Both the position numbers and the translations under genes were made by a program. Positions 25,915-32,840 of a stretch of 32,861 nt of DNA are shown one piece after another. The DNA lies in assembly GCA_029907045.1 (NCBI GenBank), contig JARYMR010000003.1, positions 1 through 32,861 on the forward strand, written 5' to 3'. This DNA comes from Candidatus Bathyarchaeota archaeon. GTDB lineage: Archaea; Thermoproteota; Bathyarchaeia; Bathyarchaeales; UBA233. The notes under the pieces are model-generated. The model was not told the DNA's origin. It was given only the letters and a program-made list of their open reading frames with translations, and made no database searches. Every line of letters begins with the position of its first letter. Within the stretch, counting starts at the first letter, position 1.

Positions 25915-26331
25915 ATGCAGCTAATAACACTAAAAGGAAGAAAAATAGTTGAGGGACACTGCAAAGCAGAAGCTCTCGTATCCACTAAGCCAATAAGTTT
26001 TCTGGGAGGAGTTGACCCAGCCGACGGAAAAATCATCGAACGCGACCACGATTTGTTTGGAGAGTGCATAAAGGATAAAATTTTATGCTTTCCCCATGGA
26101 CATGGCTCAACAGTCGGCAGCTATGTATTATATTCCCTTGCCAAGAAAAAGTGTGCACCAAAGGCCATAATAAATCAGACCGTTGACCCCGTCGTGGTGG
26201 TTGGAGCCATAATAGCAAACATCCCAATGGTTGACCAAATAGACATCAAAAAGATAAAGACAGGCGACATTGTCGAAGTTGATGCCCACAAAGGCATTGT
26301 CAAAATTTGGAAAAGGGAAGGAGCAAAATAG
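25915..26331 (+). CDS. Phosphomevalonate dehydratase, small subunit (aconitase X swivel domain)
   Basis: The protein has 138 residues and the DUF126 swivelling domain: ISFLGGVDPADGKIIERDHDLFGECIKDKI (two adjoining motifs) and FPHGHGSTVGSYVLY. In the archaeal mevalonate pathway it pairs with the large subunit to dehydrate 5-phosphomevalonate to trans-anhydromevalonate phosphate. I start at ATG 25915 after the HD gene stop; the open frame runs up to an ATG at 25870, inside that gene, and a GTG at 25906 is also possible. Stop and next start are two bases apart. Confidence 0.88.
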   Translation: MQLITLKGRKIVEGHCKAEALVSTKPISFLGGVDPADGKIIERDHDLFGECIKDKILCFPHGHGSTVGSYVLYSLAKKKCAPKAIINQTVDPVVVVGAIIANIPMVDQIDIKKIKTGDIVEVDAHKGIVKIWKREGAK

Positions 26332-26333
26332 GC

Positions 26334-27509
26334 ATGTATTTGACAAAAGAAGAGGAACGCATCTACGATGGCGAATTTGGCTGGGCAAACCAAATCTGCA
26401 TAAAAATACTTGTCCGTTTGGGCGAACTTTTTAACGCCAAAAAACTCATTCCAATAAGCTCCTCCCATGTTTCAGGAGTATCCTACAAAACATTAGGAGA
26501 TGCACCTACAGAATTCCTTGAAGCCTTGGCAAAGGCTGATGCAAAGGTAAAAGTAAAATCAACACTAAATCCTCAAAGCCTTGACTGCAATTTTCTCTGC
26601 AGAAGGCTTCCATCTGAATTGCATGAAAAGCAAAGGAAAGTTTTGAATTGTTTTGAGAAAATGGGGTTTACGTCCTCCTTAACGTGTACACCATACTATC
26701 TAGAAAAACCCAAAAAAGGCGTTCATTTGGCTTGGGCTGAATCTTCAGCTGTGGTTTATGCAAACTCTGTCATTGGAGCGTGGACAAACCGTGAAGGAGG
26801 ACCAAGCGCTCTTGCAGCAGCAATAATAAGTAAAACACCAGATTATGGAATGCACCAAGCCGAAAATCGACAACCAAAGGTTTTAGTGAAATTAGAAAAG
26901 CCATTATCGAACGATGTTGAGTTTGGTGCTTTAGGAATTTTTCTGGGCAAAATTTTGAAGGACGAAATCCCAATAATCCAAGGATTAGAAAAAGCTTCAA
27001 AGGATAATTTAAAACAGTTGGGAGCTGCCCTTGCAACCGCTGGAATGACAAACATGTTCTACCATAAGCTCCCAAGCATAAAAACTGACAAAATTGAAAA
27101 AATAAGCGTGCAAACTGACGATTTAAAAAGAACAATTGAAAAATTAACCACAACACATACAAAAACATCAGACTTGATTTTTGTAGGATGCCCCCACTGT
27201 TCCCTAAATGAAATCAGGCAAATTGCAAAGTTAATAGGCGACAGAAAAATCAGAAAAGAAACAGAATTTTGGGTTTGCACATCCCGCTACATAAGAGAAA
27301 AAGCCAGAAAAACTGTGGAAAAAATAGAGAAAAGCGGAAGTCACGTGCTTACCGGCACATGCGCCGTCGTAACATGGACAGAAAAACTTGGAATAAAAAC
27401 AATAATGACAAACTCAGCAAAAACAGCCCATTATGCACCCACACTAAACAAAGCACAAACAATACTCGCACCACTAAAGGAGTGTATAAAAAAGGCTTTT
27501 GAAGGATAA
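26334..27509 (+). CDS. Phosphomevalonate dehydratase, large subunit (aconitase X catalytic)
   Basis: The protein has 391 residues and the aconitase-X catalytic fold that carries an iron-sulfur cluster. Likely ligand cysteines lie in SLTCTPYYLEKP, GCPHCSLNEI and LTGTCAVVTW. SYKTLGDAPTEFLEAL near the start and WAESSAVVYANSVIGAWTNREGG (two adjoining motifs) are family signatures. I choose ATG 26334, just after the small-subunit stop, with GGGAAGGAG upstream; an in-frame ATG at 26307 would overlap the small subunit. Together the pair supplies isoprenoid precursors for archaeal membrane lipids. Confidence 0.9.
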   Translation: MYLTKEEERIYDGEFGWANQICIKILVRLGELFNAKKLIPISSSHVSGVSYKTLGDAPTEFLEALAKADAKVKVKSTLNPQSLDCNFLCRRLPSELHEKQRKVLNCFEKMGFTSSLTCTPYYLEKPKKGVHLAWAESSAVVYANSVIGAWTNREGGPSALAAAIISKTPDYGMHQAENRQPKVLVKLEKPLSNDVEFGALGIFLGKILKDEIPIIQGLEKASKDNLKQLGAALATAGMTNMFYHKLPSIKTDKIEKISVQTDDLKRTIEKLTTTHTKTSDLIFVGCPHCSLNEIRQIAKLIGDRKIRKETEFWVCTSRYIREKARKTVEKIEKSGSHVLTGTCAVVTWTEKLGIKTIMTNSAKTAHYAPTLNKAQTILAPLKECIKKAFEG

Positions 27510-31208: not shown

Positions 31209-31226
31209 CCAACTCTTTCTATTTTA

Positions 31227-31337
31227 CGACACTCATACATCTTCAAATGATCTTTGGAGCCCAAATCCGACATAGTCGACACCAAATGAAAGCCAAGAAG
31301 AAAGCCACAACACAGTTGATATTGCATAGTACCGACA
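31227..31337. promoter_or_regulatory. Cluster of four CGACA motifs upstream of the Fae-Hps gene
   Basis: CGACA starts at 31227, 31268, 31277 and 31333, all on the plus strand; the second and third are nine bases apart and overlap a GTCGAC palindrome, and the last lies three bases before the TATA box. They may be operator half-sites. Confidence 0.35.
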
Positions 31338-31339
31338 GT

Positions 31340-31347
31340 TTTATATA
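31340..31347 (+). promoter_or_regulatory. TATA box for the Fae-Hps gene
   Basis: TTTATATA is a consensus archaeal box, 35 bases before the GTG at 31383. Transcription would begin near 31370, at the GGTGA that serves as ribosome site. Confidence 0.6.
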
Positions 31348-31382
31348 CAACTTAAAAGATAACGTCTCTTGGTGAGTTTAAA

Positions 31383-32840
31383 GTGTCGGAATATAATTTC
31401 AAAAAGCCCGAATCAAGGGAAGAACTTATCAGAGTGTTGATGGATGCTGCCAGAAGAGAAATGCAAGAACGCGTTCGCGCCAAGGAAAAACCGACAAAAC
31501 CTACAGTTTCAGGGACTGCGAAGATTTTGAACATACATAGGGATACGCTTTATACTTGGCTTAAGGAGTTTAATGTCGATTTTGACGATATCTGTAAACA
31601 AGTTTCTACGAAAGTTTTGTCGGAGACTGTCGAAATGCCGGGAAAGTATACTTATTTAATTGGGGAAGCCCTTGTTGGGGAGGGTAATGAAGTGGCACAT
31701 ATTGATCTTTTAATAGGAGATAAGGATGGGCCTGTTGGAGAGGCTTTTGCTCAAGGGCTTTCTAATCTTTCTATGGGGCACACGCCGCTATTAGCGGTTA
31801 TAAGGCCTAATCTTCCGCCTAAACCTCACACGTTGCTTGTGCCAAAGGTTACTGTGCATCGCTTGGAAGATGCAAACAAGATTTTTGGTCCGGCGCAGGC
31901 GGCTGTAGCGAAGGCTGTTGCTGATGCTGTTGAGGAGGGAATTATTCCTAAGGAGAAGGCGGATGATTGGGTTATAATTTGCAGTGTTTTCATGCATCCG
32001 CAAGCAAGCGATTATCGAAAAATATACCATTACAATTATGGGGCAACAAAGTTGGCTTTGAAGAGGGCTTTGGCAAAGTATCCTTCATTAGAGAAGGTGT
32101 TCTATGATAAAGATAGGGCTAAACATCCAATAATGGGATTCCGAGTGCCGCGCCTTTGGAGACCACCGTATTTGCAAATATCTTTGGATATACCAGATTT
32201 GGATAGAACTAAGAAAATTATAGCTCAGATTCCCAGAAGTGACAGAATAATATTGGAGGCTGGAACACCGCTAATTAAGAGGTATGGAACAAGGGTGATA
32301 AGCGACCTTCGAGATGTTGCTAAAGACGTTTTCTTTATTGCGGACTTGAAAACTTTAGATGTTGGAAAGGTTGAAGTTGACTTGGCTTATGATGAAACTG
32401 CAGATGCCGTTATAGCTGCTGGATTAGCCCCAGAAGAAACCCTTAACGCCTTCATTCATGAAGCCAAAAGACTTGGGATATATGCCGTAGTGGATATGTT
32501 AAATGTAGAAGACCCCATTAAAAAATTGAAGACGCTTAGAGAATTCCCTGATATAGTAATCTTGCATAGAGGGATAGATGAAGAAAGTGGGCGGACGTTG
32601 GGATTAGAGCTCATACCAGAACTGCGGAAAATCTTCAGCGACAAGCGATTTCTGATTGCTGTGGCGGGCGGCATTGTGCCAGAAACCGCTAAAGAGGCTT
32701 TGGAAAAAGGCGCTGACATAATTATTGTTGGGAGGTATGTGACGCAGTCAAAGGACATTGAAAGGGCTGTGAGGGAGTTTCTTGAAGTTACGCCATCCAT
32801 GCGGGAAGACATAGACTTGTTCAGAGTTCACGTAGAATAG
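31383..32840 (+). CDS. fae-hps: HTH - formaldehyde-activating enzyme - hexulose-6-phosphate synthase fusion
   Basis: The protein has 485 residues. Residues about 40-72 form a helix-turn-helix ([22 protein letters not shown]), preceded by a charged helix. Residues about 88-250 are Fae, starting [20 protein letters not shown] with catalytic His106; it condenses formaldehyde with tetrahydromethanopterin. Residues about 265-475 are Hps, with the ADLKTLD catalytic motif of the OMP-decarboxylase superfamily; it joins formaldehyde with ribulose 5-phosphate, and in archaea the reverse reaction yields ribulose 5-phosphate. Usual Fae-Hps proteins are about 390 residues and begin near the Fae motif, so the 85-residue front part is extra. 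The start is GTG with GGTGA eight bases upstream. Confidence 0.9.

Follow-up and report, generated by a model that had tools for sequence, protein, structure and literature searches.

A helix-turn-helix domain fused to the bifunctional enzyme Fae-Hps in Bathyarchaeia and a conserved array of putative operator boxes at its gene

Fae-Hps, a bifunctional enzyme that handles formaldehyde and produces pentose sugars, carries an N-terminal helix-turn-helix (HTH) domain in the case examined here, and its gene is preceded and overlapped by conserved CCGACA/TGTCGG boxes that accompany the HTH in relatives and decay where the HTH has been lost. The gene lies in a stretch of 32,861 nucleotides from a Candidatus Bathyarchaeota archaeon, which is called the window below. 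The domain fusion, the conserved boxes, their phasing upstream, their joint loss with the domain and the lack of an equal cluster elsewhere in one 1.5-Mb contig can all be read at the sequence level. Together they make it quite likely that Fae-Hps with the HTH regulates its own gene, and we think it very likely that the HTH itself binds the boxes. Bathyarchaeia are common uncultured archaea of sediments, and to our knowledge their transcription control is hardly known. If the proposal is true, an enzyme sensing its own amount or ligand state and silencing its own gene would form a compact homeostatic circuit.

The enzyme and its N-terminal domain

Pfam places Fae at residues 93–251 of the window protein (241 bits) and OMPdecase/HUMPS at residues 262–466 (115 bits). 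The NCBIfam model PRK13307 for bifunctional Fae/Hps matches residues 91–484 over model positions 2–390 of 392, with 588 bits against a cut-off of 274, so a complete Fae followed by a complete Hps is found above the curated score. Both parts also align to solved Fae and Hps chains. In an alignment of 16 sequences H106, E292, D321, K323 and D326 are invariant; we take H106 to be the Fae histidine and the other four to be the glutamate and the D-x-K-x-x-D core of Hps. Judged by its sequence, the window protein is a true Fae-Hps. The best 120 of 6249 homologues (E < 0.001; 7999 candidates) are likewise Fae-Hps proteins of 468–527 aa, mostly 485, and the motif HRDT[LV]YxWL is present in 118 of these 120. 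Because the PRK13307 match covers residues 91–484, residues 1–90 are extra, which bears out the claim of an earlier note on this DNA that standard Fae-Hps proteins lack the N-terminal part. Among the PDB matches, residues 128–286 of chain 8ub7_B, named Avd, match Fae almost as well as 1y5y does, and this chain is presumably an engineered fusion or scaffold. An aconitase X (AcnX) gene is located at window positions 26307–27509 (Pfam PF04412, E = 3.6e-138).

Table 1. Features of the HTH-Fae-Hps gene and its promoter (window positions), and loci of the ribbon-helix-helix (RHH) form
Feature	Position or loci	Strand	Details
HTH-Fae-Hps gene	31383..32840	+	ORF, 485 aa, GTG start
N-terminal extension, residues 1-91	31383..31655	+	HTH ~residues 40-67; recognition helix 52-63; variable linker 74-91
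Fae domain, residues 92-251	31656..32135	+	Pfam, PRK13307, alignment to solved chains
Hps domain, residues 262-468	32166..32786	+	Pfam, PRK13307, alignment to solved chains
Further upstream box CCGACA	31267..31272	+	65 bp before main box
Main operator box CCGACA (putative), directly 5' of TATA box	31332..31337	+	Exact in 86/89 upstream regions
TATA box TTTATATA	31340..31347	+	Read from sequence; 35 nt before start codon; conserved in 70 aligned upstream regions
Inverted operator box (putative), TGTCGG on + strand, within GTG TCG G at start codon	31384..31389	-	81/89
Intragenic box CCGACA, codes Pro37-Thr38	31491..31496	+	Box search of window
Intragenic inverted box, TGTCGG on + strand	31618..31623	-	Box search of window
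RHH-Fae-Hps loci	L104, L105, L116, L128-L132, L141, L146, L149-L151, L153, L155-L157		

The HTH, at about residues 41–64, was matched by HTH_29, HTH_28 and HTH_23 under the Pfam cut-offs, with 16–19 bits when the whole window protein was searched and 19–22 bits when residues 1–91 were searched alone. Individual scores were 21.1 bits for HTH_28 (cut-off 25), 21.8 for HTH_29 (28.1), 13.8 for HTH_8 (22) and 23.1 for GP3_package (29.4); since the window HTH is below every curated cut-off, we describe it only as a homeodomain-like HTH. Among relatives, HTH_28, HTH_29 and GP3_package match 40 of 40 at E ≤ 0.1 (best 1.3e-5), and the nearest solved HTH relative is 2ao9, a weak match (E = 0.039). In the 121 sequences made up of the window and its 120 best homologues, the mean majority-residue frequency is 0.84 in the HTH (residues 36–73), 0.66 in residues 1–35, 0.55 in the linker and 0.93 in Fae. 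The HTH that the earlier note had placed ahead of Fae is thus confirmed by the family matches in relatives and by the conservation peak at 36–73, and judged in this way the match is not due to chance. A DNA-binding domain fused to the enzyme was found as an HTH in relatives and, over the cut-off, as an RHH domain in one protein of the RHH type described below.

A search for short HTH relatives returned 107 proteins, in 13 of which PF16677 (GP3_package, a phage DNA-packaging HTH) is the precomputed Pfam domain. These were considered as a source of the HTH and rejected, as the 17 inspected look like pieces or frameshifted copies of HTH-Fae-Hps. P0294, P0299, P0297, P0286 and others are short HTH-only proteins on long contigs, with tails apparently frameshifted in the HTH-Fae linker; this may stem from sequencing errors, or the gene may really be split or frameshifted where the two domains meet. 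Among the 107, P0280 carries the label of a Verrucomicrobiae MAG, presumably through misbinning.

Promoter boxes and the proposed autoregulation

The earlier note had credited the gene with its own promoter and ribosome site and had named positions 31209–31382 for a DNA-binding assay. The promoter is there in archaeal form, as a TATA box, together with a weak GGTGAG at 31371–31376 before the start codon, and the named region and the gene start hold the conserved CCGACA/TGTCGG array that tracks the HTH (Table 1). A sigma-70 promoter scan gave nothing useful. To describe the array we used 89 distinct upstream regions, drawn from all 119 HTH loci among L001–L174 and from the window, with starts set by profile, and a set thinned to 49 on N-terminal similarity. 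CCGACA stands against the TATA box in exact form in 86 of the 89 (47 of 49 after thinning), the exceptions being L038 and L118, each one base off, and L081, a degenerate paralogue in which H52 and R53 are changed. TGTCGG is found at the start codon in 81 of the 89 (41 of 49 after thinning) and is absent in exact form in eight. At least one further box lies between −200 and −61 in 58 of 87 upstream regions. A match to six bases is not in itself unusual, since the 32.9-kb window holds 10 boxes in total (five in the gene region and five elsewhere) against 6.4 expected by chance.

Subsets other than the 89-region set were used to count codons and flanking information. Most positions flanking the boxes hold little information in 70 aligned HTH upstream regions. 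The Ser2 codon is TCG in 67 of 70 HTH genes, against 136 of 1111 other Ser codons, and CCGACA encodes 103 of the 149 Pro-Thr pairs in N-terminal regions, compared with 5 of 23 for the Fae-Hps part and 9 of 209 for neighbouring ORFs. These two biases point to selection acting on the DNA within the gene.

The spacing of the boxes follows the helical repeat upstream of the gene. From main box to start box the distance is 51–55 bp in HTH-type upstream regions, with a mode of 53, and 52 bp in the window. Boxes farther upstream tend to lie about 32, 42, 53, 63, 74, 85 or 106 bp away from the main one. A scan of periods from 8 to 14 bp peaks at 10.5 bp (n = 80 distances, R = 0.735; thinned n = 54, R = 0.765), a signal reached by 0 of 5000 random sets, though such permutation figures overstate the certainty because the sequences are related. 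When each distance was counted once, the 37 distances up to 150 bp gave R = 0.616 at 10.5. For the intragenic boxes, whose positions are constrained by codons, 10.5 is no better than 11.5 (R = 0.548 and 0.558, respectively), so phasing is shown only upstream. Steps of whole turns would be hard to account for unless protein occupies several boxes from the same side of the helix.

We propose that the N-terminal HTH reads the half-site (T)CCGACA. One box adjoins the TATA box, a second, in inverted orientation, covers the start codon five helical turns (about 53 bp) from it, and others lie whole turns upstream and in the first 300 bases of the coding sequence. On its own Fae forms pentamers, and the PDB entries 1y5y and 1y60 hold ten chains; an oligomer could thus offer enough HTH heads to link boxes to one another. 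Tethered by flexible linkers, several heads of the oligomeric enzyme would occupy boxes along the same side of the helix, hide the TATA/TFB site together with the start of transcription, and shut the gene when enzyme is sufficient. Occupancy by formaldehyde, H4MPT, Ru5P or hexulose-6-phosphate could modulate the regulation, and the natural candidate for a signal would be the status of pentose or formaldehyde.

Transcription would be expected to start about 26 bp after the TATA box. With the main box overlapping the TFB-recognition position, the second box just past the expected start and others inside the gene, autorepression is favoured, as TBP/TFB and polymerase would be blocked; should the HTH bind, we lean towards repression over activation as its effect. 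The main alternative, which we think possible but unlikely, is an activating role at the same promoter: the box would replace the TFB-recognition element, the bound enzyme would recruit TBP/TFB, and positive or bistable feedback would follow. The archaeal BRE lies directly 5′ of the TATA box, just where the main box is found in all but three of the 89 genes, and this placement would be compatible with an activator too. The start-codon box and the intragenic boxes, however, fit blocking or looping better than recruitment. Furthermore, in two HTH-deleted genes the enzyme frame is intact and the TATA box still present, and expression therefore probably does not depend on the HTH.

Box loss, controls and genome scans

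Natural losses of the HTH bear on whether the boxes depend on the domain. In one genus (32 genomes, 30 loci read) all 27 HTH genes start with TGTCGG and 25 of the 27 have the exact main box, the other two (L366 and L391) being one-base variants; L390, which is without its start, was left out of the count. Where the HTH is deleted, in L377 and in L373 (L123 under another number), the TATA box is still there, with CCGGCA in place of CCGACA, and TGTCAGG or TGACAGG where the HTH genes have TGTCGG. The degenerate paralogue L081 and the HTH-deleted L123 and L140 are without both exact boxes. These HTH losses amount to about two independent events in one genus, with loci related by descent. L081 (in G008) and L140 (in G129) are second Fae-Hps paralogues that have no operator boxes, each beside an HTH copy in the same genome.

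Genes of other types served as controls. Neither box is at those places in 17 distinct RHH-type upstream regions, and 2 of 16 RHH upstream regions carry a box far upstream. In 13 domain-less genes, one HTHb gene and 2 HTH-deleted genes, no CCGACA was present between a point 200 nt ahead of the open frame and the beginning of Fae; two domain-less genes, L119 and L169, have one stray TGTCGG each. The RHH clade has a palindrome of its own, TGTGACAC..GGTCACA, which is unlike CCGACA/TGTCGG. When 16 of the 17 RHH genomes were searched (G052 was left out), the 18-base RHH pattern was found in 13, with 14 matches, 13 of them at fae-hps, and one control match. The extra match, in G093, is inside an unrelated reading frame and was taken as chance.

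In a contig of 1,497,384 bp, the fae-hps promoter is the densest cluster, holding 4 of the 406 boxes within 131 bp, with two more boxes within 350 bp; random placement also produced four boxes within 250 bp in 5 of 300 trials. Since no equally dense cluster was found elsewhere in this one contig, control looks limited to the gene's own promoter. The aldolase-Fae gene (see below) was considered as a regulon member and rejected, no CCGACA box being seen by eye in 9 upstream stretches.

These results can be set against a reading in which some unlinked regulator owns the boxes and the enzyme uses its HTH for oligomerisation or to contact other proteins. HTH-like folds can indeed mediate protein contact, but the boxes decay or vanish where the same protein has lost its HTH or keeps it in degenerate form, the palindrome is unrelated where the enzyme carries an unrelated DNA-binding domain, and the contig scanned has no second cluster of equal density, all of which make an unlinked regulator improbable. 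The earlier note had weighed an enzyme that also binds DNA against an HTH recruited for protein contact, and because the conserved boxes track HTH presence the DNA-binding branch now appears favoured. Taken together, the boxes, their phasing and their co-loss amount, on sequence grounds, to an operator-like sequence that depends on the domain, one of the marks by which a trigger enzyme (an autoregulatory enzyme that binds DNA) is recognised.

We also searched 30 genomes, 29 with an HTH gene plus the HTH-deleted G080, for the layout of box and TATA box. The pattern CCGACAN{2,4}TTWWATA was found in 29 of the 30, G080 being the sole genome without it, with 29 matches at fae-hps and 12 elsewhere versus 19 for the reversed control. 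A narrower pattern, CCGACAN{1,2}TTWWATA, was found in only 10 of 30 genomes and was dropped. The two-box pattern CCGACAN{42,52}TGTCGG occurs in 28 of 30 and also matches elsewhere, and its reversed control outnumbers it in several genomes, for example G109 and G150. As the patterns of the box-TATA and RHH scans were drawn from the very promoters they match, it is uniqueness and the controls, not presence, that carry the weight of these scans.

We consider it very improbable that CCGACA is a lineage-specific core-promoter element and TGTCGG a start-codon context, both unrelated to the HTH. Such an element would account for the fixed position of the main box relative to the TATA box, but the layout is matched away from fae-hps less often than its reversed control, the domain-less and RHH fae-hps genes of the same class are without it, and the whole-turn spacing of the extra upstream boxes is left without explanation.

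The earlier note had named two findings that would speak against an HTH on the enzyme, a recognition helix missing in relatives and a translation start inside the gene near residue 85, and no sign of either was seen. The helix is almost invariant in the relatives examined: H52-R53-D54-T55 is kept in 88 of 89 distinct genes while the codons vary (five for R53, four for T55), and this constancy despite codon change indicates constraint on the protein and argues against the internal start. That the N-terminal part is untranslated is scarcely credible, for although five of 120 database entries of the RHH version begin after the RHH, nothing of the kind was found for the window gene, and the changing codons of the helix, the length of the best homologues and the position of the TATA box, which suits a start at 31383, all go against it.

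Distribution, the RHH form and related systems

When genome contigs were scanned with the N-terminal part, 70 loci were obtained, 63 of them labelled Bathyarchaeota, Bathyarchaeia, Bathycorpusculum or miscellaneous Crenarchaeota group and the other 7 labelled Crenarchaeota, Nitrososphaerota or uncultured archaeon. In a class-wide sample, 84 of 151 genomes have a Fae gene, and HTH-Fae-Hps is present in 43 of the 84 (in one of them truncated at a contig end, in another accompanied by a further, HTH-deleted copy), so the form whose phylogenetic spread the earlier note had wished to see checked is widespread in Bathyarchaeia. The others of the 84 have RHH-Fae-Hps (17), domain-less Fae-Hps (12), the other HTH type (1), an HTH-deleted gene only (1), a Fae-Hps cut at a contig end (1; L161, G117) or an aldolase-Fae gene only (9). 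In a phylum sample, 66 of 398 genomes score above the PRK13307 cut-off, and the loci of 30 were read; outside the class sample, L189 and L197 have the HTH, while L176, L177, L188 and L194 are without an N-terminal domain and served as tree outgroup.

The maximum-likelihood tree was built on the Fae-Hps core alone, with 81 rows. Of these, 46 are of the HTH type, namely the window and 45 left after thinning 80, and the remainder are distinct rows of other types that survived filtering; L137 was dropped for its masked bases. Domain-less forms are basal. The RHH rows group together (100/94), as do the HTH rows (100/88), with one gain needed for each, and two HTH-deleted rows call for two separate losses within the HTH clade. 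The HTH and RHH clades fall together (98/86), so a domain replacement in their ancestor is possible; the long-branched domain-less L119 is placed beside the RHH clade (98/87). The other HTH type, which falls among the domain-less rows, is a third N-terminal HTH type on Fae-Hps and was seen in one genome only (L145 and L179, the same gene in G014).

The RHH domain passed the PF01402 cut-off in one of five RHH-type proteins scanned, and in the other four it was below the cut-off or absent. A profile of the RHH clade gave the ParD antitoxin 3kxe as its best PDB match (E = 0.00058), and the first seven of its nine matches are RHH antitoxins. Among the 120 RHH-type homologues listed, the RHH motif was found in 115 (104 by pattern and 11 by eye). 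The RHH-type database entries that start after the RHH are P0134, P0193, P0212, P0235 and P0237; some public records thus hide the domain.

We see roughly even chances for a wider scenario, in which the Fae-Hps autoregulator arose on two or more occasions when unrelated DNA-binding domains (HTH, RHH, perhaps also the third HTH) were captured, the HTH and RHH forms each with a new operator. The HTH-form oligomer would wrap or loop several hundred bp, including the coding start, by way of the whole-turn boxes, reading pentose or formaldehyde status. With HTH and RHH forms, matching promoters and natural losses at hand, the origin of regulators by domain capture becomes directly testable.

Enzymes with N-terminal DNA-binding domains that regulate genes are known in PutA, BirA and NadR. 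The principle of PutA and BirA, a metabolic enzyme with an N-terminal HTH or RHH regulating genes, would be shared here. The differences are that the enzyme is another one and archaeal, that HTH and RHH occur on the same enzyme in different clades, and that the putative operator is a phased multi-box array reaching into the coding region, with control apparently of the own promoter only. The enzyme-as-regulator principle is thus known; we found no description of an HTH or RHH on Fae-Hps in the literature searched, mostly non-subscription papers. Group II BirA belongs among the compared systems (PMC4016012). BzdR, an HTH-XRE domain fused to a shikimate-kinase-like domain, is described as having lost enzyme activity (PMC3602430); it is alike in joining a DNA-binding domain to an enzyme fold, whereas the enzyme domains of Fae-Hps keep their conserved residues.

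PRK13307/NF009833 Fae-Hps proteins have the same two catalytic domains in the same order as the window protein, but the PRK13307 model is without a DNA-binding domain, whereas the window protein has the HTH in residues 1–90 and its own box array. Of the homeodomain-like HTH_28/29/23 and PF16677 families, HTH_28, HTH_29 and PF16677 are matched by relatives, with the window below the cut-offs and the domain partner a different one. The RHH clade best matches ParD among ParD/CopG RHH proteins and, unlike these, is fused to Fae-Hps. The Hps activity of a Fae-Hps, Mhun1628 of Methanospirillum hungatei, has been assayed (PMC5241800). For hot-spring Bathyarchaeia, published genome analysis infers that genes of the non-oxidative pentose phosphate branch are missing from most lineages, which likely rely on the reverse ribulose monophosphate pathway in their place (PMC8407382). 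Fae-Hps would then be the gate to nucleotides and the point at which free formaldehyde is both released and trapped.

In addition to Fae-Hps, we observed aldolase-Fae genes of about 500 aa (L082, L083, L084, L085, L158-L160, L162-L168 and L170-L174), with an N-terminal DapA-family aldolase and a C-terminal Fae; TIGR00674 and TIGR03126 are over their cut-offs in the three proteins scanned. As a guess, formaldehyde from a keto acid may be passed straight to Fae in these proteins.
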